Made by a program: the position numbers and the translations under genes. From positions 1 through 40,786 of IMG/VR virus record IMGVR_UViG_3300050026_000090: a DNA stretch of 40,786 nt, one strand, 5' to 3'. The notes under the pieces are model-generated. The model had not been told where the DNA came from, made no database searches, and saw nothing but the letters and a program-made list of their open reading frames with translations. The DNA comes from a virus. Position 1 is the first letter of the stretch, and the number at the start of each line of letters is the position of its first letter. Shown here one piece after another: positions 1,159 through 30,600 of the stretch.

Positions 1159-2012
1159 GCTGTTCCCCTTTGAATGTGATATACATTTTCCCATTTATCG
1201 AGGTCTCTTTGTGCTTCTTTCAGGTTCCTTTGAGCTTGGTAATGAGTTGCTTCCCATAGAGGGTCTTTACCCTCAAGGGACTTCGCCTTAGCTACCTCTT
1301 TTTCGTAATGAGCCACATTGCTTTGGGCTTTCATTAAAGGAGCGTACCGAACAAGCGCGTTATCGATAACGCCAATGGGTTCTATATCTGTAATAGACTC
1401 ATATCCATCACTGTCAGTTCCTGTCTGCTTGGCTTTGTAAATCCAGAGCTTTTGTTCTTTTCCTTTTACGGGGGGGCGATGACCATATTCCGCCAATCGG
1501 CTGAGAAGTTCTCCGTCAGTTTTGTTAAGCCATTCAGGGTCTATCTTGACGGCAGATAGTCCATTGTGAAAAGTATGCGTCTGGTAATCCATCGAACGAC
1601 CTTGTTTTCTATCGTATGAAGGACCAGAGGACGATCTTACAAAAATATCTTCGCCTTTATGTGATTCAATCAAATCTCTTAATTGCGCGACGTTCTTCTT
1701 TTTCGGAACTGAAGAGTCTTTAAGCACGGAAGTGCTTGTCTCTCCTCCTGTCTTATCGGTAAATTCTCCACCTTCATCACGCGGATGCTCACTCTCCACA
1801 AATTCCGCGTCGTATCCCAAAGCCGAGTCTGTCCCCCTCCCAAGTTGCGCCTGCTCCTCCGCTTCGTCCTTCGGATCAAAGCCCAACAATGCGATCACGT
1901 CCTCTGGTGTTTCTTCGAGTTCCTCATCGTTATCCGGTTCATCATTATCGGGTTCTTTGCGCCAATCGATAGGCTCACTATCCGCTTTTCCGAAATGCAC
2001 ATCAGGAAGCAT
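1155..2012 (-). CDS. Putative portal-associated cargo protein with HPR-x-x-GxF linker
   Basis: The start is placed at the ATG at 2012, which overlaps the portal-fusion stop and has GGAG nine bases upstream; a longer frame begins at 2066. The product has 285 residues: an acidic region (1-55), a linker at 57-90 (TDSALG, FVESEHPRD, GGEFTDK) that closely matches the linker in the upstream portal protein, a globular domain at about 120-195 beginning with an FVRSSSGPSYD strand and containing a HNGLSAVKIDPEW motif, and a coiled coil at 225-280. I do not recognise the domain with certainty. Sharing the linker with a portal-topoisomerase suggests this is a second virion-carried effector or enzyme. Confidence 0.75.
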   Translation of the reverse strand: MLPDVHFGKADSEPIDWRKEPDNDEPDNDEELEETPEDVIALLGFDPKDEAEEQAQLGRGTDSALGYDAEFVESEHPRDEGGEFTDKTGGETSTSVLKDSSVPKKKNVAQLRDLIESHKGEDIFVRSSSGPSYDRKQGRSMDYQTHTFHNGLSAVKIDPEWLNKTDGELLSRLAEYGHRPPVKGKEQKLWIYKAKQTGTDSDGYESITDIEPIGVIDNALVRYAPLMKAQSNVAHYEKEVAKAKSLEGKDPLWEATHYQAQRNLKEAQRDLDKWENVYHIQRGTA

Positions 2013-4476
2013 AGGCCGCTCTCCATTCTCCGAACACAACAGGATTGATGTAGCTCTGTAGAGCAACAGTTGGCGTATTGCCTAGTTTGCTCGACACACG
2101 CTTTGCAACTTCCATGACCGACTTACGATAAGACTTTTCATCTTTAGGTTTTGGAAGCGATTGAACTTCTGAAGATGCTATTTCATTGGCTAGGTAGGTA
2201 CGAAAATCCTTTGTTTTGTAGCCACCATGGTCTAGATGATGCACGAAATCCAGAAGCGTATTATCACGCACCTTATCGAACAAGCGTCCTGTATCTCCGG
2301 CCCTACTTGCCCTTTCTCGAAGATTTGCTGCAAGCCTACGGTCTGTAACGGGAAGGTCAATATGCACTCCGTCTTTTCCCGTGAAAACAAGTCTTGTATC
2401 GTCTCCGTTAACCATGACATGACGCCCTTCAAGAGTAGTTGCACCATAGCCTTTTTCTTTTGCCTTGGTATCCGTATCGCTTCCCGGACGTATTCCCATT
2501 TCCAATATCAATCGGGTGCAATCAGCATGGTCTCTCGTATTTGTATCGTCGCTACGCTCTTTTTCTTGCAACTGCGACTCAATCAATGGCCTATCTTTTC
2601 TCAATGATTCAATACGAGCAAACTTATTGGCTGATTGCGATTGTTTAAATTCCTCTGAATACACATATTGCGGCCTTCCTTTTGAATCTTTTCCGATAGC
2701 CAAAAGGGATGCGTGTGGATCATCGCTAACACGCACATCTTTCCACGCGGGGGGTAGCTTGAGCGCAGATATATGAGCGGGCCATTCTGACCTAGAAGCG
2801 TAAGAAACAAGATGGGCAGACGCTTCTCCTTTTGTGGGCTTGCTTTGATGCTCTCCTGGTTTATCTCCAAACCTTCCGTCAGGTGCGCGAGGATGCTCGC
2901 TCTCCACAAAATCAGCGTCTATGCCCAGTGCGGAATCTGTGGCCCTTCCGAGATTTGCCCCAAGTTCCGCCTCATCTGGTAGTGGAATCTCTTTCGTTAC
3001 ATCAATTCCTTGATACCCCGACTCTGGGTCACGTGCAATTCTTTCCCGTTCCTCTTGCGCGTCGATCACCCCGCGGTCAATCAAGTTCCCGGCTCGGATA
3101 CTGTCGTTGACGCGGATGGTCGATTCCTGCTCCTCGGTCATTTCGTAGAGCGGTACAAATTCAAACGTGATCTCAGGGTCAATCTCCCCGTACATCGACA
3201 TTTGGACGATCTTGAACATCTTGTCTATCGGGCTGCGCCAGTGTGCCTCTTGCTGGGCGTGGATGTAGTCATACCAGATACGGACTTCGCCCTCGGCCAC
3301 GTTGCCGAATCCCGATGGAGTGATGCCTGTCAGAACGGTTGCAGGTTCCCGCGATACCACGCAAAGCTGCTCAAGCGCCTGTGACTGGAGTTCATGCAAC
3401 CCACCCAAGGGAACGGCAATCTGCTCAAGCTCTTCGCGGTCCTTGTCCAGCACCATGACACCCTTATTGCTGCGCGTGGCTGAGAACAGCTTGATTCGAG
3501 CAAACAGGTTTGAGCCATCGTCCCCGCCGGTAAGCACCTGGTCCATAGCCGTCTTGAGCACAAGGACAGAGAAGTTGTTGATGAGGTCCGAGACGCTCTG
3601 CCGGGTCCGCAGCCAATTATTGACGTATGGCTCCGCAAGCTGTGAAAGGCTCATCCCGGAGAAGTTGAACGCGGGCTTGAAGATGTCGGGCACTTCGCGG
3701 GTGACAATGACAATTAGCCGCGATGCGTCCCAATGCTCACCCATTACCCACCAGCTATCCGGCCTGTAGAAGTTTGGGCTGGAGGGCGTCAGCGAGTTGT
3801 ACATCAGCGGGGTTGTCCAGATCGGATCGACGTTCTTGAATCCAATCAGGCTGTCTTTCTTGACCGTGCGCGGGTCGATGATGAGCGGAGTCTTTAGGTC
3901 CGCTCCCTTGATGTTGATGAGAATTTGCCCCGTTCCGTAGAATGCATCATGCTCCGCCGCCTTGCGGATAATGCCCTGGATTCCAAGCGCAGTGAACGCC
4001 TGCTCAATCTCGGTAATCTTCGTCTTGGTCGATTCATCCTCGGTGTCTGTACTGTTGAATTTAATCCACTTGCGCGTCAGTTCCGTGGCCAGCGCCGTAG
4101 CCATGTTGAGGTATTCCGAGCGCAGCGCCAAGAGCATTAGGTACGGATAGCCGGGGAAGCCTTCGATGTTGCTGTATGCATAGAGTTGTGAGCCGAACTG
4201 AGGCCCAGCGTCCATTGCCAGCCGCGCGCACTCATAGGCCGGCTCGGAGTCCATTGCCACTTGAGCCGTGACCCCGTGCGGCACTACACCCTTCGGTATC
4301 ACGGGGATGCGGATGGGGTAATGGACGCGATCTACTGGTTCCTCAAGCGCAAGACGAATCGCAGACGCGCTGATTCGCTGCGTTGCAAGTTCGTTACCTT
4401 TGCGTTTCCTCTCGCGGTAACGGCGAACACGATCACTGCTGCTTGCAGGCGATTCGGTTGGCTTCTGGTTTCCCAT
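2002..4476 (-). CDS. Portal protein (DUF1073-like) fused to type IB DNA topoisomerase
   Basis: This 824-residue protein has two parts. Residues about 50-500 resemble DUF1073-type portal proteins, with PGYPYL, SPSGFGN-like and AGNLIDRGVID segments, and would form the DNA-entry vertex. A linker at about 509-542 (TDSALG, FVESEHPR, DGRF) follows. Residues about 562-824 match bacterial/poxvirus-type topoisomerase IB: LPPAWKDV opening, RPQYVY, YGATTLEGRHV, F-TGK-DG, KDFRTYLAN and LGNTP...SYINP. The catalytic set is visible: Arg663, Lys701, Arg759, Asn800 (Asn replaces the poxvirus His, as in bacterial enzymes) and nucleophile Tyr809. The ATG at 4476 is chosen because it overlaps the upstream stop (TAATG) with GGAG ten bases before it; a GTG at 4485 is the alternative. 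Normal portals are about 450-550 residues, so the fusion is exceptional. Confidence 0.9.
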   Translation of the reverse strand: MGNQKPTESPASSSDRVRRYRERKRKGNELATQRISASAIRLALEEPVDRVHYPIRIPVIPKGVVPHGVTAQVAMDSEPAYECARLAMDAGPQFGSQLYAYSNIEGFPGYPYLMLLALRSEYLNMATALATELTRKWIKFNSTDTEDESTKTKITEIEQAFTALGIQGIIRKAAEHDAFYGTGQILINIKGADLKTPLIIDPRTVKKDSLIGFKNVDPIWTTPLMYNSLTPSSPNFYRPDSWWVMGEHWDASRLIVIVTREVPDIFKPAFNFSGMSLSQLAEPYVNNWLRTRQSVSDLINNFSVLVLKTAMDQVLTGGDDGSNLFARIKLFSATRSNKGVMVLDKDREELEQIAVPLGGLHELQSQALEQLCVVSREPATVLTGITPSGFGNVAEGEVRIWYDYIHAQQEAHWRSPIDKMFKIVQMSMYGEIDPEITFEFVPLYEMTEEQESTIRVNDSIRAGNLIDRGVIDAQEERERIARDPESGYQGIDVTKEIPLPDEAELGANLGRATDSALGIDADFVESEHPRAPDGRFGDKPGEHQSKPTKGEASAHLVSYASRSEWPAHISALKLPPAWKDVRVSDDPHASLLAIGKDSKGRPQYVYSEEFKQSQSANKFARIESLRKDRPLIESQLQEKERSDDTNTRDHADCTRLILEMGIRPGSDTDTKAKEKGYGATTLEGRHVMVNGDDTRLVFTGKDGVHIDLPVTDRRLAANLRERASRAGDTGRLFDKVRDNTLLDFVHHLDHGGYKTKDFRTYLANEIASSEVQSLPKPKDEKSYRKSVMEVAKRVSSKLGNTPTVALQSYINPVVFGEWRAAYAS

Positions 4477-4712
4477 TAGAGGCACACTCCGTAACGATTA
4501 TGCACCATTTCGCGCATCTCGTCACGAAGGAAATAGCCATCAGCGAAGAAATCACCTAAGCGTGTCCATCCGTTACGGTAGTCGAAACGCTGCGTTCCCT
4601 GCCAGTCTGGGAAGCTGCTGCGAAGGCCATCCACGAGGCGCAGCTGGCTCTTCCTGTACATCACCGGCGTCTGCTCTGCCTGCATATCCTCTTCGCTTCG
4701 ACGCTCTCTCAT
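4476..4712 (-). CDS. Small hypothetical protein between terminase and portal (78 aa)
   Basis: The ATG at 4712 overlaps the terminase stop (TGATG) and the stop overlaps the portal ATG (TAATG), so it is translated in a chain with both. The protein is highly charged, with a long helical N-terminus and aromatic residues in the second half (WTRLGDFFADGYFL). It shows no recognisable domain. Position suggests a packaging or connector accessory role, but this is only context. Confidence 0.7.
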   Translation of the reverse strand: MRERRSEEDMQAEQTPVMYRKSQLRLVDGLRSSFPDWQGTQRFDYRNGWTRLGDFFADGYFLRDEMREMVHNRYGVCL

Positions 4713-6417: not shown

Positions 6418-6831
6418 CTATTCCTTGCCGTACAGGGCATCTCGTACAGCTTTCATGCCGCGAATCTCATGCACGATTGGCCCTTCATCCGGCCCGGAGA
6501 TAGGCTGCGTGATCTTGCCCTCTACCCTATCTGCAACCTCTGCCGCCGCCCGCACTTTGCCCTTCACGGCCTCGCGCACCAGCGACATGGCGATTACCTG
6601 TGCGTATGTGGTGGATTTGTCTAGCTTTAATTGCCGCGCCATATCGGAAGGGATGGGCTTATCAAGCAGGGCGGCGTATGCGTCTGTGAGGGGCTTGCGC
6701 TTGGGACGGCCTGACATATTGCCTGATTCCCCAGGTTTCCACTTCCGCGCCTCCATCTCAGGCGTCAGCTTTGGTACGTAAGGCGTGTTTCCTTGCGTGT
6801 TTGTAGCCACGTCCTGTTCACGATCCGGCAC
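6418..6831 (-). CDS. DUF5681-type protein, probable small terminase subunit
   Basis: The 137-residue product carries the KWKPGESGNMSGRP motif at about residues 30-44, the hallmark of DUF5681 proteins, which commonly lie just before the large terminase. The middle is helical and could contact DNA. The start is a GTG at 6831 that overlaps the end of the ParB-like gene by 14 bases, with AAGG upstream. The stop abuts the ATG of the zinc-ribbon gene. The small-terminase role is inferred from position and family, not shown. Confidence 0.8.
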   Translation of the reverse strand: MPDREQDVATNTQGNTPYVPKLTPEMEARKWKPGESGNMSGRPKRKPLTDAYAALLDKPIPSDMARQLKLDKSTTYAQVIAMSLVREAVKGKVRAAAEVADRVEGKITQPISGPDEGPIVHEIRGMKAVRDALYGKE

Positions 6832-7102
6832 TCAGCACCGCCTTCTTGCCTGTCGCGTTCTCCCATCGCGTCACAATGACGTCACAATACGCAGGCGACA
6901 ACTCTGTTCCATAGGCAATTCTACCATTTTTCTCTGCCGTCTTGTTCCCGGCGATGATGCGTCCATGCTTATCGAGGAGGATTGACCGGCCAGCCCCGTA
7001 TTGCCGTAAGCTGTCCTCGATCATCTGGTTCCCGCGTGGTGAGCCGAGGTTGGCATTTTTCCCGTCCGGGATAAGCGTACTCAGCTTGACCGTTTCGCTC
7101 AT
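6818..7102 (-). CDS. ParB/sulfiredoxin-fold N-terminal-like protein (94 aa)
   Basis: The protein has the layout of a ParB N-terminal domain: a PDGKNANLG region, a conserved helix (NQMIEDSLRQYG), a strand with LLDKHGRIIAGNKTAE that corresponds to the ParB nucleotide-binding box, and a closing strand (DVIVTRWEN). It lacks the HTH region of full ParB proteins, so it may be an independent domain acting with the methylase or packaging proteins. The ATG at 7102 is chosen because it follows a TATAAT box by 6 bases and no Shine-Dalgarno exists; a longer frame begins at 7165. Confidence 0.75.
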   Translation of the reverse strand: MSETVKLSTLIPDGKNANLGSPRGNQMIEDSLRQYGAGRSILLDKHGRIIAGNKTAEKNGRIAYGTELSPAYCDVIVTRWENATGKKAVLSAGS

Positions 7103-7108
7103 GGAGTG

Positions 7109-7137
7109 ATTATAGCGCGTCTTTCCTTCTATAGCAC
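7109..7137 (-). promoter_or_regulatory. Promoter of the packaging operon, probably leaderless
   Basis: A perfect TATAAT lies at 7114-7109 on the minus strand, preceded by GCGC. The -35 box 17 bases upstream is weak (GTGCTA). Only six bases separate the -10 box from the ATG at 7102 and there is no Shine-Dalgarno sequence, so transcription would begin at or near the A of the ATG. Confidence 0.5.
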
Positions 7138-7140
7138 ACC

Positions 7141-7170
7141 TTGACAACAAAGCAGCTATGTGCATACAAT
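7141..7170 (+). promoter_or_regulatory. Rightward promoter with embedded operator
   Basis: TTGACA (7141-7146) and TACAAT (7165-7170) are separated by 18 bases. The spacer holds an imperfect palindrome at 7147-7161 (ACAAAGC-A-GCTATGT) related to the perfect one at 7414-7430. The ATG at 7178 is seven bases after the -10 box, so this message is also probably leaderless. Confidence 0.65.
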
Positions 7171-7177
7171 CCTGCTT

Positions 7178-7378
7178 ATGGACGATAAAACCGTATCAGC
7201 GGTGATGAGCTACCTTGGGCGCAAAGGCGGACGGCCTCCTGTCATGCGCTCCTGCCCCAAGTGTGCCCGTACAGTGAGTGCTAGAGCTATGCAGTATCCC
7301 TGCCCTGCACACACATCAGCAGCGTCTAGGAGATTGCCCGAAAAGATTTTCAGCCGCGTAAACATTGGCGATGAGTGA
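7178..7378 (+). CDS. Small Cys-rich DNA-binding-like protein (66 aa)
   Basis: It is the first gene of the rightward block. The product has a GRKGGRPP basic segment followed by CPKCARTVSARAMQYPCPAH, a likely zinc site made of C28, C31, C45 and H48. The ATG at 7178 is preferred over one at 7160 because the latter lies upstream of the -10 box end. The basic motif plus zinc site suggests a small nucleic-acid binder, perhaps the regulator of the adjacent operators; this is inference. Confidence 0.65.
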   Translation: MDDKTVSAVMSYLGRKGGRPPVMRSCPKCARTVSARAMQYPCPAHTSAASRRLPEKIFSRVNIGDE

Positions 7379-7488
7379 GTTTTGCACATTTTCCACAGGC
7401 AGAGCTATTGACATACAAAGCTGCTTTGTATAATATCTAATCATGCAAGGACAAGGACACAGAGTGAGTTTTGCACATTTTCCACAGG
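7373..7488 (+). repeat. 27-bp direct repeat pair flanking a promoter-operator
   Basis: Two identical 27-base copies at 7373-7399 and 7462-7488 share GAGTGAGTTTTGCACATTTT and the following CCACAGG. The first covers the end of the 66-residue gene; the second lies within the leader peptide ORF, just before the next Shine-Dalgarno. They bracket a 62-base segment that holds the promoter and palindrome, as if a regulatory cassette was duplicated or inserted. Confidence 0.9.
7408..7434 (+). promoter_or_regulatory. Strong promoter with 17-bp perfect palindromic operator
   Basis: TTGACA (7408-7413) and TATAAT (7429-7434) are both perfect, with a short 15-base spacer. The palindrome TACAAAGCTGCTTTGTA (7414-7430) fills the spacer and touches the -10 box, so a bound repressor would block RNA polymerase. 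It should drive the small-gene block from 7443 rightward. Confidence 0.8.
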
Positions 7489-7502
7489 AGGAATTGAGAT
7501 GA
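7443..7502 (+). CDS. Possible leader peptide (19 aa)
   Basis: An ATG lies eight bases after the TATAAT box, so translation could begin on a leaderless message. Nineteen codons later the TGA overlaps the ATG of the next gene (ATGA), giving coupling. The last third is formed by the second 27-base repeat. No function is recognised; it may only deliver ribosomes to the gene at 7499. Confidence 0.4.
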   Translation: MQGQGHRVSFAHFPQEELR

Positions 7503-9520: not shown

Positions 9521-10639
9521 ATGAAGGGATATAAGGGGTTCAACGATCAGCTGCAATGCTCGCCCAATGGCAAGCCATTTCAGTACGAAGTAGGGCAAAC
9601 CTACACCCACCAAGGAACCATTTCGCTCTGCAAGCAAGGGCTGCATTTCGTAGAGCATCCCCTGGACACATGGACCTACTACAAACCGCTTGACGGTAGC
9701 CGCTTCGCTCTGGTGGAAGCTGAGGGCGTTTCCGACGAAACGCGAGATGATACCAAGCGTGTCGCACAATCGCTCACCATCAAGGCAGAGGTTAAGATTC
9801 CTACCCTGCTCAAAGCCGCAGTTGAGTTTGTATTCAGTAAGGTCAAGAGTTCGCCAACTGTGAGCGCCACAACCGGCGACTCCGCGCACAGCGCCACGAC
9901 CGGATACTCCGCGCACAGCGCCACGACCGGCGACTCCGCGCACAGCGCCACGACCGGATACTCCGCGCACAGCGCCACGACCGGATACTCCGCGCACAGC
10001 GCCACGACCGGCAACTCCGCGCACAGCGCCACGACCGGCGACTCCGCGCACAGCGCCACGACCGGACACTACGCGCACAGCGCCACGACCGGCGACTCCG
10101 CGCACAGCGCCACGACCGGCGACTACGCGCACAGCGCCACGACCGGCTTCTCCGCGCACAGCGCCACGACCGGCGACTCCGCGCACAGCGCCACGACCGG
10201 CGACTACGCGCACAGCGCCACGACCGGCTTCTCCGCGCACAGCGCCACGACCGGCGACTACGCGCACAGCGCCACGACCGGCGACTACGCGCACAGCGCC
10301 ACGACCGGCGACTACGCGCACAGCGCCACGACCGGCGACTACGCGCACAGCGCCACGACCGGCAACTCCGCGCACAGCGCCACGACCGGACACTACGCGC
10401 ACAGCGCCACGACCGGACACTACGCGCACAGCGCAGTAGTGGGGAAAGAGTGTATCGCCGCATCGCTCGGCGTAGCAGGACAAGCGAAGGGCATCAAAGG
10501 CAACTGGCTTGTCTTAGCCGAATGGGTAGATGACAAGATCAAAAGCATGGGAATCACTATCGTAGACGGCAAGAAGATCAAGGCCGACACTTTCTACACA
10601 CTGAAAGACGGAAGGTTTGTCGAGGCTACCCATGACTGA
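9521..10639 (+). CDS. DUF7666-like protein with 21 nine-residue repeats
   Basis: The 372-residue protein has three parts. Residues 1-110 match the DUF7666 type of phage protein (MKGYKGF start, FQYEVG, then a KQGLHFVE segment). Residues 115-303 are 21 tandem units SATTGxxAH in which only two positions change (D, Y, N, H or F, then S or Y). The end is a folded tail (GVAGQAKGIKGNWLVLAEW). A nine-residue period could form a beta-solenoid rod. GGAGG precedes the ATG. Function is unknown; a structural or surface role for the rod is inferred. Confidence 0.85.
   Translation: MKGYKGFNDQLQCSPNGKPFQYEVGQTYTHQGTISLCKQGLHFVEHPLDTWTYYKPLDGSRFALVEAEGVSDETRDDTKRVAQSLTIKAEVKIPTLLKAAVEFVFSKVKSSPTVSATTGDSAHSATTGYSAHSATTGDSAHSATTGYSAHSATTGYSAHSATTGNSAHSATTGDSAHSATTGHYAHSATTGDSAHSATTGDYAHSATTGFSAHSATTGDSAHSATTGDYAHSATTGFSAHSATTGDYAHSATTGDYAHSATTGDYAHSATTGDYAHSATTGNSAHSATTGHYAHSATTGHYAHSAVVGKECIAASLGVAGQAKGIKGNWLVLAEWVDDKIKSMGITIVDGKKIKADTFYTLKDGRFVEATHD
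9863..10429 (+). repeat. 27-bp coding tandem repeat, 21 units
   Basis: Each unit is AGCGCCACGACCGG plus a 7-base variable part and GCGCAC. Six unit types occur: GGC-GAC-TCC, GGA-TAC-TCC, GGC-AAC-TCC, GGA-CAC-TAC, GGC-GAC-TAC and GGC-TTC-TCC. The rest is invariant even at silent sites, apart from one ACA in unit 1. This fits recent expansion and shuffling. Confidence 0.95.
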
Positions 10640-10790
10640 CCCGCTGACCAACCTGTTCAGCACCGGCCCCAACCGCAGCATCCGCGCACACGAGCCGCAG
10701 ATACACTGGCCCACCGTGCGCTTGACATTAGCAATCATAACCGCGCTGGCCATCCTGGGCTGGCTGTTCGTGAATGGAGGCTCGAATTGA
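10632..10790 (+). CDS. Small single-pass membrane protein (52 aa)
   Basis: The ATG lies eight bases inside the end of the repeat protein gene. Residues 31-48 form a hydrophobic helix (LTLAIITALAILGWLFV) near the C-terminus, with a polar N-terminus. Shape fits a tail-anchored or holin-accessory peptide, but no family is recognised. The 3' end carries the GGAGG that serves the next gene. Confidence 0.6.
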   Translation: MTDPLTNLFSTGPNRSIRAHEPQIHWPTVRLTLAIITALAILGWLFVNGGSN

Positions 10791-11143
10791 GCGAAGAAAT
10801 GAACCCGTGCCCGTTTCATGCCGACAAGAGGCCGATCCTTGTCTATTTCGGCGAAGGTCCAAGTAGCATAGCTGAATGTGAGGAAGATTACTGGAGGGAT
10901 TCTCCGGGAAGTGCACAGTGCGATTGTGGGGCCAGTGGTCCTACTGACTATTCATTCGACGGTTGTATCGCCGCATGGAACACACGCCCGGTCGAGGATG
11001 CGCTGGTCGAGGCGCTGAAAGTGTTTGTTAATGCTGCTGAGTCGTGGCACAACTTCCACAAGCACACTGATGGGATTCAATGCGACCAGCTCTGCGCTGC
11101 TATTGAACCAGCACGCGCCGCGCTCAAGTTGGCTGGCAAGTGA
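10787..11143 (+). CDS. Lar-like restriction alleviation protein
   Basis: The product has the Lar-type pattern: an opening PCPF, a CDCGASGP segment in the middle and GCIAAWNTRP afterwards. Lar proteins modulate host type I restriction enzymes. A C-terminal extension (about residues 66-118) is helical. The start is taken as the TTG at 10787 because GGAGG at 10775-10779 is well spaced and TTGA overlaps the previous stop; an ATG at 10799 is the alternative. One usual Cys is replaced by His (CPFH). Confidence 0.65.
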   Translation: MSEEMNPCPFHADKRPILVYFGEGPSSIAECEEDYWRDSPGSAQCDCGASGPTDYSFDGCIAAWNTRPVEDALVEALKVFVNAAESWHNFHKHTDGIQCDQLCAAIEPARAALKLAGK

Positions 11144-17815: not shown

Positions 17816-17986
17816 CTACTCCGGCCAGCCGAGGGCAAGCAGCGATGCGTCCAGCATTTTGATTTCGGCTTCGGCTGCGTCACGGATTGCTATTGCTTTC
17901 TCGCGCTGTGCAATCAGGTGAGTCTTGGCGTTGGCGATACGCCGGGGTACTTTCACGGGTTTAACTACTGTGGGTTTCTGGTTCAT
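17816..17986 (-). CDS. Small coiled-coil protein (56 aa)
   Basis: The frame runs from an ATG at 17986, which overlaps the upstream stop as ATGA, to a TAG at 17816. The protein has a basic N-terminus (KPVKVPRRIANAK) and an Ala/Glu/Arg-rich helix (AQREKAIAIRDAAEAEIKML). Tight packing between neighbours supports it. Unknown role. Confidence 0.6.
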   Translation of the reverse strand: MNQKPTVVKPVKVPRRIANAKTHLIAQREKAIAIRDAAEAEIKMLDASLLALGWPE

Positions 17987-18357
17987 GTGGTCCTTTCTGT
18001 GTGTTGATGGTTTGTGTCAGTCACGCCATCCACCAAATAAGGTGGTTCCTGAGCCGCTGCCCTGATTGCGGCGAGCCTGTCGAGTATCTCTGCCGCGTGT
18101 ACGGCAATATCTATGACCGGCTCAGGGGCCGGAAGCTGTTCAGGTTCTGGTTCGGGTTGCTTGTTGGCGACTTCGGCGATAGCTCCGGTCACAAACGCAT
18201 TGGCCAGGTTCTCACATGGCCGCTCACTGTACGTTCCGTGATAGGTGTTACACGCCGCTACGTGGAAGTACGCGATGAGGTTGGTCCGCTGTAAACACTG
18301 TTCATCGGTCAGCGGTGTACCCTCTTCAATCTTCCCATTCTCTGTCAAGAATTTCAT
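17983..18357 (-). CDS. Hypothetical protein, intact paralogue A (124 aa)
   Basis: The first 60 residues (MKFLTENGKIEEGTPLTDEQ, then RPCENLANAFVTGAIAE) form a conserved domain shared with the adjacent gene at 18402-18668. A Pro/Glu-rich linker (PEPEPEQ) and a helical tail follow. GGAGAG precedes the ATG. Function unknown; the duplication indicates recent recombination. Confidence 0.75.
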   Translation of the reverse strand: MKFLTENGKIEEGTPLTDEQCLQRTNLIAYFHVAACNTYHGTYSERPCENLANAFVTGAIAEVANKQPEPEPEQLPAPEPVIDIAVHAAEILDRLAAIRAAAQEPPYLVDGVTDTNHQHTERTT

Positions 18358-18725
18358 CGTCTCTCTCCTTTGCTGGTTACTGCGTTACTGTTGCGCCTGA
18401 ATTACCGGCTTGCCCTCGACATACTCCTGAAATTCGCCGGTTGCAGGATCAGCGATGAACGCCACGTCTCCAATGTCGATTCGGCGATAGCTCCGGTCAC
18501 AAACGCATTGGCCAGGTTCTCACATGGCCGCCAACCATACGTTCCGTGATAGGCGCCCTCACACGCCGTTTCGTGGAAGTACTCGATTAGGTTGGTCCGC
18601 TGTAAAACCTGTTCATCGGTCAGCGGCGTACCCTCTTCGATCTTTCCCTTCACTGTCAAGAATTTCATCGTCTCTCTCCTTTGCTGGTTACTGCGTTACT
18701 GTTGCGCCTGAATTACCGGCTTGCC
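18173..18725. repeat. Tandem duplication of gene leader and 5' half (308-311 bp offset)
   Basis: Copy A (18173-18414) and copy B (18481-18725) match. The last 73 bases of each (18342-18414 and 18653-18725) are identical and include the start codon, ribosome site, intergenic space and the last codons of the upstream gene. The coding half is diverged with a one-codon indel. Confidence 0.9.
18402..18668 (-). CDS. Truncated paralogue B of the 18357 gene (88 aa)
   Basis: Residues 1-62 match paralogue A, ending at the shared AFVTGAIAE. Beyond this point the sequence changes abruptly to an unrelated tail (STLETWRSS). In another frame that stretch encodes EYVEGKPVIQAQQ, a fragment of the C-terminus of the annealing-protein gene. 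The gene is therefore a chimera at a duplication junction and may make a shortened product. Confidence 0.6.
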   Translation of the reverse strand: MKFLTVKGKIEEGTPLTDEQVLQRTNLIEYFHETACEGAYHGTYGWRPCENLANAFVTGAIAESTLETWRSSLILQPANFRSMSRASR

Positions 18726-19682
18726 GCCCACATACTTATCGCCGTCGATGTAGAGCGCATCCTTGACGTTGATGCGCATTTTCCCATTCTTGTCGTCCTT
18801 GACTTCAACTTGGAATTGGCACTCATGGTTCAATCCGGCTCGGATTGCCTCGAAGAGTCCCGTGTCAAAGCAGCTAAACTCGCTGACCGTCTTCACGTTG
18901 CCCTTGAAGTAGACGAAGATGTAGGGCTGCGTCCCTTCCGGGTTCGTCTCCGTCTTGGGGACAGTGCGCTTCTTTTCGGTGATGGTGAGCGGCGTACAGG
19001 TCAGCGTGGTTCCCGCGAGGATAGCGTAGGGATACTGCTGCGGGTCAGAGGCGCTTGTTGCGGTCTTGGCCGCACTTGTCACAGAATCGTTGGTAGCCTG
19101 CGAAACGGTATCCGCACCACTCGCAGGCTGTGGAGGGTCCACTTGAGGAGCAGAACTGTTCTGATGTGCTTGCCAAGTGTTCCCTTGCGTCTCGGTAGCC
19201 ACGCCCTGCTCTCTGAGTGTCTGGATTTCGGTTTCGTCTAGCATCCCAAGTCCGCAGATGGAGAGCGTTACCCGACGCTTTGCCTTTGTCTCCGCCTTCA
19301 TCATGGCATTGGCAAGGTTCTCGCCTTTCAGCCCGCCCGCGTTGACGGCTCCGGTAGATGAGTCCACGCGCCCATCGCGGTCCTTTGCGTCGGCTACAAC
19401 CACAATCAAGTCGCCGATCTGTTTTGGGTCCACCTTCGTGATTGACACGCCATGAACCTTGCGAAGCTGCTCAGTACAATCTTTGAGCGCGTAAAGCTGG
19501 AGTTTGCCATTCAATGTGATGTAAGCAAACGGTTTCGTGAGCGGGTTCAGACCAAGCGATTCGCAGATAGCCTTGTAAAACGATAAGCGTCCATCAGCGT
19601 TAAGGTCTTTCAGGTCGCCTTGAATCAGCGCGTTCTCGATGGCCTTATCGAGGCCGGGACGTGTTGCAAGTTCAGTGTTCAT
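18696..19682 (-). CDS. RecT/Bet-like single-strand annealing protein
   Basis: Residues 1-170 have the layout of phage annealing proteins: SFYKAICESLGLNPLTKPFAYI, LQLYALKDCTEQL and ANAMMKAETKAKRRVTLSICG. Such proteins pair complementary strands in phage recombination. A Ser/Thr/Ala-rich linker (175-210) joins a C-terminal beta-rich domain to the GKPVIQAQQ end. No partner exonuclease is adjacent, but a VRR-NUC nuclease lies at 21564. The ATG at 19682 overlaps the upstream stop as ATGA. Confidence 0.75.
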   Translation of the reverse strand: MNTELATRPGLDKAIENALIQGDLKDLNADGRLSFYKAICESLGLNPLTKPFAYITLNGKLQLYALKDCTEQLRKVHGVSITKVDPKQIGDLIVVVADAKDRDGRVDSSTGAVNAGGLKGENLANAMMKAETKAKRRVTLSICGLGMLDETEIQTLREQGVATETQGNTWQAHQNSSAPQVDPPQPASGADTVSQATNDSVTSAAKTATSASDPQQYPYAILAGTTLTCTPLTITEKKRTVPKTETNPEGTQPYIFVYFKGNVKTVSEFSCFDTGLFEAIRAGLNHECQFQVEVKDDKNGKMRINVKDALYIDGDKYVGGKPVIQAQQ

Positions 19683-27632: not shown

Positions 27633-30600
27633 TTAGTTTCCGTCGCAGTGATAGAACAGGTTGCCGGTCAGTGCCGGAAAAGTGAATGTCACCGCTGTCT
27701 TGCTTTGGATGCTGTTATAGACGTTGGTTGCCAGCGTTGTACTCGCGTTCGCCGTGCAAAACGCCGCATTTGTCCATCCAGAATTGGCAAAGGTGATAGT
27801 CACGGATGTTGCCGCGCTCAGGCCGGTGATCTCGCCACCCGCATTGGTGGAGTAGGCCGCGATAGTTCCCGCTGAGGTTATGGGCGCGGTTGCGGTTATG
27901 TGCTGAGTGCCATTCAGCCACGTTCCCACCGTTGCGGTGTTGCCCAGTGTCGTTGTGTTGCTGCCGTTCCCAACTGCTCCGGTGCCAATTACATTTTCAT
28001 TCGTGTCGCCGCTGGCCTTTGCCTCCGTGTTAGCGCCCAAATAGACGCTGCTTGAAGAGGCTGCGTTGGCCGTCGAACCGTCGCTGATAAATTGACCAGC
28101 TTGGTACCCATTCGCGGAGTTGTAGTTGCCGGTCGTGTTGGCTTTGAGCGCATACATCCCGTTCGCGGTGTTGCTGGTGCCGGTGGTGTTGGCTTGGAGC
28201 GCATACATCCCGTTCGCGGTGTTGCTGGTGCCGGTGGTGTTGGCTTGGAGCGCATACATCCCGTTCGCGGTGTTGCTGGTGCCGGTGGTGTTGGCTTGGA
28301 GCGCATACATCCCGTTCGCGGTGTTGCTGGTGCCGGTGGTGTTGGCGTTGAGCGCCTCAAACCCATTCGCGGTGTTGCTGGAGCCGGTCGTGTTGGCGTA
28401 GAGCGCCGCGTACCCATTCGCGGTGTTGTTGTTGCCGGTGGTGTTGGCGTTGAGCGCATACATCCCGTTCGCGGTGTTGTAGGAGCCGGTGCCAGTCAGA
28501 TTGCCCGCTCCACCGGAGTAGTAGTTGTTGAGCGATGTCTGCGACTGTAGAGCGGGAACCCCATTTAACAAAACACCGCTTGAACCGATAGTTGTAGGCA
28601 ATGTCGTGCCAGCCACGACATTGCCTGAGAACGACGCGCTGGTGCCATTGAGTGCGCCGGTCAGCGTACCGCCAGTGAGGGGAAGTTTCGTCGGGTCTGT
28701 GGCAGTTCCCGCACTAGTCGCATAGGTGGCTGTGGCCGCGTTGCCTGTGGTGTTGGCTGCGTTGTTTGGTATGTCGCCGGAAAGCAGTGTGGGCAACTGC
28801 GCGTGAGGCAATGTGCCAGTGGTCAAGTCCGATGCAGAGACAACCACGTTGCTGCTTAATGCGTGGCCGTTAACCGTTGTTGCGGTTGAGACCGCGCCAA
28901 GGTTCGTCAATGCACCTGCTGCCGTGGTTGCGCCCGTTCCGCCCGCCGTTACCGGAACCGAGGAGATGCCCGATAACGCCGTGCCGGTTGCGCTGTAATA
29001 GGCTATCTGCCCGCTGGTCCCCGCGTTGACCGTTCCGTTGCTGCTCCCGGTGCCGCAGGCTACGCCCGTATTGGTGATATACCCGGAGTTATCGATTTGC
29101 AGGCAGTTATGGCCGCTGCTCGCCGCCAGTCCCGGAAACATGATCGCTGTTGTGCCCGTAAAGCTCGCATATAGGCTGCTGCTGCCGCCGCCGTAGATAT
29201 TGAATCCCGTCCCGGATCCTGTTTCATAGTTGACGCGTACAACACCGGAAGTGTTGGAAGCATTAATGTAGGTGTCGCCGCTGTTGGTGCTCTGGTATGC
29301 CTTGAAGCTGTCCAATCCTCCGGTTGCCGAGTTGAGCGCCCAGTTATTGCTCGCATCCTTCACCATGTACCATTGGCTATTGCCGTTCCAGTCATTGAAA
29401 ATAAAGGATTCCTTCTGACTGGTCGTCAATCCCGCCCACAAAGTTGCATCAATTTCCGCATCCGCCTGGTTCTTTATTGTCGGCGTGCCGGCAAGAGTTG
29501 ACGTTCCGCCCACCTGCAAATCACCGTACAACTGCGTATTATTCGATGTCCCCGTAAAAGCAGCAATAAGGCTGCCGTATCCATCGCCTACGTAAGTATT
29601 TCGCGCCTGCGCGTACCCTCCGCCATAACCGTGATAGTTGAAATAAAGAGAACCAGACCCATTCGTGGCTTGCTCAAACAACTCGTTTCCTTGCTGCTCC
29701 AACTGACCAAGATATGAGTTTCCATCTACCATTAGCGAGGGAGTGTGCCAGCGGGTCATAGTATTACCAGAGTTGTCAGTCAACGTCGCGCCGGAGGTAA
29801 AGGCGTTGTCAGCCGTTGAGAATTGTCCTGTGCTTCCTGACGTGATAATTGCTCCGTGGCCGACAAACTCATTACCGTGAACTGTAAAATCAGTTCCGTC
29901 GATGTTTGACTCTACCAGGCTCTCTATGTGATTTCCAACGATAATCGTATCTTCACCCCCGCGAACGTCTAGACCTTTTCGGGCGGCGTTTAGAATCGTA
30001 TTACCGACAAGGGTGTTAAACTCGCTTCCAGTCCACACCAGCACACCGTCATAAAGCCCGGCATCGTAGCCAGCACCGCCGACTGCGACATTATTAGCAA
30101 CCACAGACCACGATGAATTATTTAATTCGTAGGCGTGCTGACAAGTTAAACCCAGAATCGTGCAAGTAGTTCTATTATTGGTGATGATGCAGTTATTACT
30201 GCCAGCGCACTCAAAGCCAGCTGACTCCGGATTTTCCGAGTTGTTTGAGTCCATAGTAGTTTCGGCTGAATAAGCCAAAACGCTGTCCACGGCGGCATTT
30301 TTTAGCCACATATTATGCACGGCGTTCTTCACTCCGGTATTTGAACCAGCGTTGGCGTTCGTCTCGCCTACTCGGATATTGTTGCAAGAGTGTGTGCCAT
30401 CTTCGGGGTCTGCATTCTGCGCATTATTTCCATCAATAGTGAACCCGTAAATCTCCACATTACTTACGTTGTCCGCAATACGCAGTAAGTCGCTGTTTTG
30501 TCCATCGGCCAGTTTGAGTACGGAAGTGGGAACTCCGTGAATGCTTGTTCCACTCTGCGTAATGCGAAGAGCGTATTGCTGCCCCGTAGTATTATACAAA

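Follow-up and report, generated by a model that had tools for sequence, protein, structure and literature searches.

Two adjacent residues vary within the nine-residue units of a DUF7666 phage repeat protein

A phage gene encoding a DUF7666 protein contains a tandem array in which two adjacent codons per unit vary and nearly all other positions are conserved. As judged by sequence comparison this focus on two positions is real, and it is common across the family, recurring in hundreds of other phages. We consider it probable (roughly 0.6) that these positions are turn residues of a solenoid which serve as a binding surface under diversifying selection, that the array is reshuffled by ordinary turnover of units, and that the gene product is an accessory and probably non-virion protein. 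The fold and the turn position of both residues are predicted; their exposure, a binding function and selection by the host are what we infer.

Results

A tandem array with two variable codons per unit

The window, i.e. the complete stretch of 40,786 nucleotides of the virus record IMGVR_UViG_3300050026_000090, contains the array in frame within a single gene (Table 1). Each unit is translated as SATTG[D/Y/N/H/F][S/Y]AH, and the two variable residues are designated X and Y. The X codon is GAC in 11 of the 21 units, TAC and CAC in three each, and AAC and TTC in two each; the Y codon is TCC in 12 units and TAC in nine. This corresponds to D (11), Y (3), H (3), N (2) and F (2) at X and to S (12) and Y (9) at Y. 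The residues are combined to six unit types, which follow each other from unit 1 to 21 in the order DS YS DS YS YS NS DS HY DS DY FS DS DY FS DY DY DY DY NS HY HY.

A first-pass annotation of the DNA had described 21 units varying at two adjacent codons, and both the coordinates and the content proved to be exact. Its observation that all variable codons are of the type NNC also holds for the window array. Because only 47-63% of the codons for D, Y, N, H and F in the other genes of the window end in C, this uniformity goes back to a single founder from which all units descend. The further claim, that flanking bases are fixed even at silent sites, was mostly correct: apart from X and Y the units differ only by a silent ACA in place of ACG in unit 1 and by the Gly codon before X, which is GGC in 15 units and GGA in six, all of the latter being YS or HY. 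The score of Tandem Repeats Finder (948, with 93% matches) and the recurrence of the pattern in 71 of 72 deduplicated relatives rule out a chance origin.

Two other readings of the region were rejected. Long minus-strand ORFs cross the array, but they were dismissed as genes because the 27-bp unit lacks stops in several frames; homologues of the plus-frame product, in contrast, number in the hundreds (582 confirmed stretches). A Vibrio phage record annotates such repeats as CRISPR spacers, but the window array is coding.

Table 1. Features of the array gene and its surroundings (positions of the window)
Feature	Position	Strand	Basis
Shine-Dalgarno-like GGAGGA, 7 bases 5' of the start codon	9508..9513	+	read from sequence
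372-aa protein: DUF7666 head, predicted nine-residue-repeat beta-solenoid, C-terminal cap	9521..10639	+	ORF list, Pfam, PHROG
DUF7666 head, residues 1-114	9521..9862	+	Pfam, AlphaFold (pLDDT 93)
Tandem array, 21 x 27 bp = 567 bp	9863..10429	+	in frame within ORF 9521-10639
X,Y codon pair of unit 1	9878..9883	+	per-site counts; turn position in model
X,Y pairs of the following units	every 27 bp, last pair 10418-10423	+	per-site counts
C-terminal cap, residues 304-372	10430..10639	+	alignment, phrog_27197, strands in model
Weakly Lar restriction-alleviation-like downstream gene	10787..11143	+	phrog_599 E 1.9e-4; PF14354 E 0.024, below curated cut-off

Domains and predicted structure

The head matches PF24703 (DUF7666) over residues 1-98 (E 5.9e-30; 104.1 bits against a gathering cut-off of 27). 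The same family is matched by all 17 proteins of alignment A1, and the head residues K5, C13, C37, G40, H42 and K79 are invariant among 43 relatives. The cap domain is conserved among relatives as well (alignment A1; phrog_27197). With the whole protein we obtained the PHROG matches phrog_4433 (E 8e-66) and phrog_27197 (E 6e-20), neither with an assigned function.

The first-pass annotation had suggested a nine-residue solenoid, and AlphaFold, supplied with 17 aligned proteins from the window and the loci, indeed predicted the array as a confident, regular beta-solenoid (mean pLDDT 89, rising to about 94-97 in most of the array). In all 19 inner units of the model S-A-T-T and H form a strand, and G and X a turn. 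Alternate turns differ in units 6-14, as two units per coil would give. The strongest amino-acid period is 18 in 28 of 98 relatives, and the last residue of the unit shows a modest excess at lag 2 (z 2.1), which also fits two units per coil; the parity of the unit number gave no signal. The comparison with solved structures revealed no convincing match for the full protein and none for the head domain. An ADP-ribosyltransferase head, as annotated in Acinetobacter homologues, was not supported: 2hw2 ranked first for the full model, but at E 0.54, whereas the better head-only model (pLDDT 93) had no such match among its best 50, and no PDB sequence match was found.

The same two positions vary across the family

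In IMG/VR we found 25 close loci, and an alignment search yielded 582 confirmed stretches, from which 80 loci were kept. Homologues were also present in phages in culture and in phage-like plasmids, with Pseudomonas, Salmonella, Acinetobacter, Vibrio and Blautia among the hosts. The head of the phage ES18 gene had no match when searched against E. coli genomes.

For the analysis of diversity we used 72 arrays, deduplicated by head domain. In 71 of these the variation is centred on X and Y, in agreement with the focused diversification proposed before. Mean amino-acid diversity amounts to 0.63 at X and 0.56 at Y, falls to 0.25 for the last residue and is at most 0.06 elsewhere, the Gly before X being invariant by construction as the anchor of the unit comparison. 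Variation at other positions of the unit, which the first-pass annotation had named as counting against its reading, is thus rare among relatives, with the exception of the last residue, which varies in 68% of the arrays but less strongly than X and Y. Across the family X is D in 38%, Y in 28% and N in 20% of cases; H accounts for only 2%, although mutation reaches H as easily. At the Y position S, Y, R, Q and G predominate. The arrays contain a median of five unit types out of nine possible combinations, and the residues at X and Y depend on each other (mutual information 0.68 bits versus 0.26 bits after shuffling). Along the arrays, like types are in excess at lag 7.

Differences between close phages

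Closely related phages were compared directly; several of these comparisons use short-read assemblies, in which tandem repeats may be mis-assembled. The loci L003 and L006 have flanks that are 99% alike and arrays that differ by eight units; L042 and L044 differ by two units, and likewise L070 and L088. In the pairs L091/L106 and L116/L117 the first 270 bases of the gene are identical and the arrays wholly reorganised. Two phage-like plasmids of P. aeruginosa (L035/L036) show three differences in 5,104 bp, all of them in the X and Y codons of unit 17, where DY was replaced by YR, the type of the next unit, at unchanged length. Shuffling of whole unit types, as the first-pass annotation had proposed, is therefore supported by these pairs. 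The arrays of two clinical isolates (L118/L119) are identical.

The Barba phages of Rheinheimera combine the same DUF7666 head with five-residue NTG-X-Y units. Among 115 near-identical Rheinheimera phage genomes most copies of the gene are identical. In the variants that were fetched, the X and Y codons, which make up 162 of 978 sites, take five of the seven distinct substitutions in the gene; one-unit deletion and one-unit insertion occur as well. All five X/Y substitutions are nonsynonymous, and since all five are transitions, mutation may contribute to the pattern. A constant order of units, also named beforehand as evidence against the reading, was encountered in part: near-identical phages vary in order and number, whereas some related isolates and most Rheinheimera isolates agree. 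The identical arrays in most Rheinheimera isolates and in one clinical pair argue for slow change, so that change of the array appears to be focused and current but slow, and not a programmed rapid switch.

Two contigs, L026 (371-493) and L027 (402-524), contain a 40-codon remnant in which the first 30 residues of the gene are fused to the last ten; the rest of the head, the array and the cap are deleted.

What may keep the two positions diverse

According to our preferred explanation the array would be a regular beta-solenoid rod linking the DUF7666 head to the C-terminal cap, in which each nine-residue unit contributes a strand, H-S-A-T-T, and a turn, G-X-Y-A. The side chains of X and Y would project at the rod's edges as an exposed ladder, which may bind some host component. 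Point changes at X and Y would be retained with variety being favoured there, and changes in the remainder would be purified. Duplication, loss or conversion of whole units would homogenise the silent sites within the array of each phage.

The mixture at X and Y might instead be a need of folding, if it prevents repulsive or sticky ladders (e.g. stacked Asp) or misregister of the coils, with no specificity for a partner. Equivalent turns should stack along the regular solenoid predicted by AlphaFold, and X does mix acid, amide and Tyr. Nevertheless we regard this explanation as unlikely: neither same-type nor Asp-Asp neighbours are avoided at lags 1 and 2, and swaps of single residues continue between near-identical phages.

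That several residues are merely tolerated at these turns, and that drift together with unit turnover generates the pattern with no benefit of variety, seems to us rather improbable. In its favour, D, Y and N prevail at X, and two of these three are typically found after Gly in turns; moreover, neighbouring types follow each other at random (lag 1). However, in a simulation of neutral turnover with uniform mutation and block copying, X/Y and silent diversity were equal, whereas in the 72 arrays the diversity of first and second bases at X and Y is about five times higher than that at fourfold silent sites of conserved codons (0.341 versus 0.066). The X/Y value exceeds the silent one in 70 of the 72 arrays (Wilcoxon p 3e-13), and at X and Y the third bases of codons for a given amino acid barely vary (0.020). 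The changes in the Rheinheimera variants, being mostly nonsynonymous and at X and Y, also stand against neutral tolerance. Silent-site diversity is 0.066 within arrays versus 0.683 between the consensus units of arrays, a pattern that is one of concerted evolution.

Genome position and likely role

In the early-left operon of ES18 the gene comes next after an N-like antiterminator, in SEN22 it adjoins the superinfection exclusion gene sieB, and Acinetobacter and Pseudomonas phages have it close to repressor genes. Where P22-like relatives match the flanks of the gene, its place is taken by ral, antirestriction, sieB, HNH or pentapeptide genes. Such a placement in early or lysogeny regions speaks for a protein that is accessory, probably non-virion and directed at host factors, and from its gene neighbours a role in exclusion or counter-defence is plausible. 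An association with Lar-type genes throughout the family was rejected as weak, since such neighbours were found in 8 of 37 records and the candidate in the window does not pass. Models of defence systems gave no match.

Tail spikes and adhesins often contain solenoid rods, and some relatives are annotated as 'collagen-like' or 'c-type lectin', as would be expected if the array were the repeat rod of an adhesin that is secreted or exposed on the virion. We consider this quite improbable, because annotated phages have the gene in early or lysogeny regions, and in the window it is located outside the tail and head gene blocks.

Comparison with known systems

The array protein is a member of the DUF7666 phage proteins (PF24703; phrog_4433), which, as for example ES18 gp53, share the head, the nine-residue G-X-Y units and the cap. 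In the literature searched we found no mention of DUF7666 and no description of the function of these proteins, ES18 gp53 included; the rule of two-residue diversification appears to be unreported there. A large and functionally blank phage family would share one design, a rigid rod in which each unit has two free residues that are kept diverse, everything else being homogenised. The diversity suggests a hitherto unrecognised, evolvable binding surface and points to a partner in an arms race, and the array would be a natural modular scaffold.

The logic of the array, and only the logic, is that of TAL effector repeats, in which near-identical units likewise differ at two adjacent residues. TALE arrays evolve by gain, loss and recombination of units. 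The TALE units consist of 33-35 residues and are helical, in contrast to the nine-residue beta units predicted by AlphaFold, and each TALE di-residue reads one DNA base. For the array it is conceivable, at low probability, that successive X/Y pairs touch successive steps of a periodic target, such as a nucleic acid or some other regular polymer, and that the order of the pairs encodes specificity. If so, the array would be a phage-deployed beta-solenoid counterpart of TALE repeats, re-programmed by unit turnover.

The 'pentapeptide' proteins of the Rheinheimera Barba phages have the same head family and vary at the same two residues after Gly, but differ by their five-residue units and by a C-terminus unlike the cap. 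YdhT of E. coli (NF007410) matches the repeat region (E 8e-20) and ends in a similar-looking cap sequence, but has a different N-terminus and degenerate units, and its 813-bp gene has hardly changed in almost all genomes compared (coverage of at least 80% in 5,362 of 5,426). The K-12 copy (L124, 4748-5560, minus strand) looks like a degenerate chromosomal relative of solenoid and cap. The RTX beta-roll (PF00353) also has nine residues per unit, and two units per coil are suggested by the array model; the GGxGxDxUx motif of RTX is absent from SATTGXYAH, and no Pfam RTX match was found up to E 0.1. Pentapeptide repeats (PF00805) have five-residue A[D/N]LXX units, in contrast to the period of nine in the array, which gave no Pfam match to them.

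No indication of adenine-targeted mutagenesis

The first-pass annotation had likened the variation to adenine-targeted change, a reading that was not upheld. In the window array every repeatedly variable site does have A among its alleles, and diversity-generating retroelements also focus on few codons; even so, the action of such an element or of other adenine-targeted mutagenesis on the array is extremely unlikely. Reverse transcriptase PF00078 is absent from 36 of 37 phage records, the window record included, although the host might encode such an enzyme, and the proposed search for a distant reverse transcriptase accordingly revealed none in the window record and none in 35 of 36 related records. 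The sole match is located about 55 kb from the array on a 120-kb contig; it is a reverse transcriptase-like ORF (L115) in the contig of L074. No template copy is present in the window, where the best match outside the array comprises 17 of 23 fixed bases and the only shared 14-mer lies in tail-protein repeats. Among the variable X/Y sites 40 of 181 never carry A, and of the adenine sites elsewhere in the units 227 of 300 are invariant. The third bases of the X and Y codons are almost constant. In addition, the converted unit of L035/L036 adopted the existing type of its neighbour. The two-codon focus is better explained by selection at the amino-acid level on the turn residues combined with homogenising unit turnover.

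Additional observations

A second repeat protein of the window, distinct from the array protein, is a virion-type protein of 1285 residues with 51-bp repeats (28107-28491, minus strand), whose 17-residue NTTG units are also varied beside Gly. At 18172-18736 an imperfect 311-bp tandem duplication (91% matches) gives rise to paralogous small ORFs (17983-18357 and 18402-18668). A direct repeat around GAGTGAGTTTTGCACATTTTCCACAGG occurs at 7374-7400 and 7464-7490, with a spacing of 90 bp, 5' of early plus-strand genes.

On the minus strand, an ORF of 827 residues (2002-4485) joins a phage portal (PF06381) to the catalytic core of a eukaryotic-type topoisomerase IB (PF01028, E 2e-21), which is an unusual-looking fusion. 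This ORF and the one at 1155-2066 have the linker-like motif TDSALG-D-FVESEHPR in common. A short ORF at 6818-7165 (minus strand) with a ParB-like start and a DNA methyltransferase tail is possibly a remnant.

With regard to the head domain, the C-terminal part of T4 rIIB (L125, 966-1904, minus strand) is weakly DUF7666-like, being the best of 502 sequences, 500 of them shuffles (E 0.01). A comparison of both by hhalign gave E 0.005 but a probability of 7, and the Foldseek search also listed RIIB proteins.
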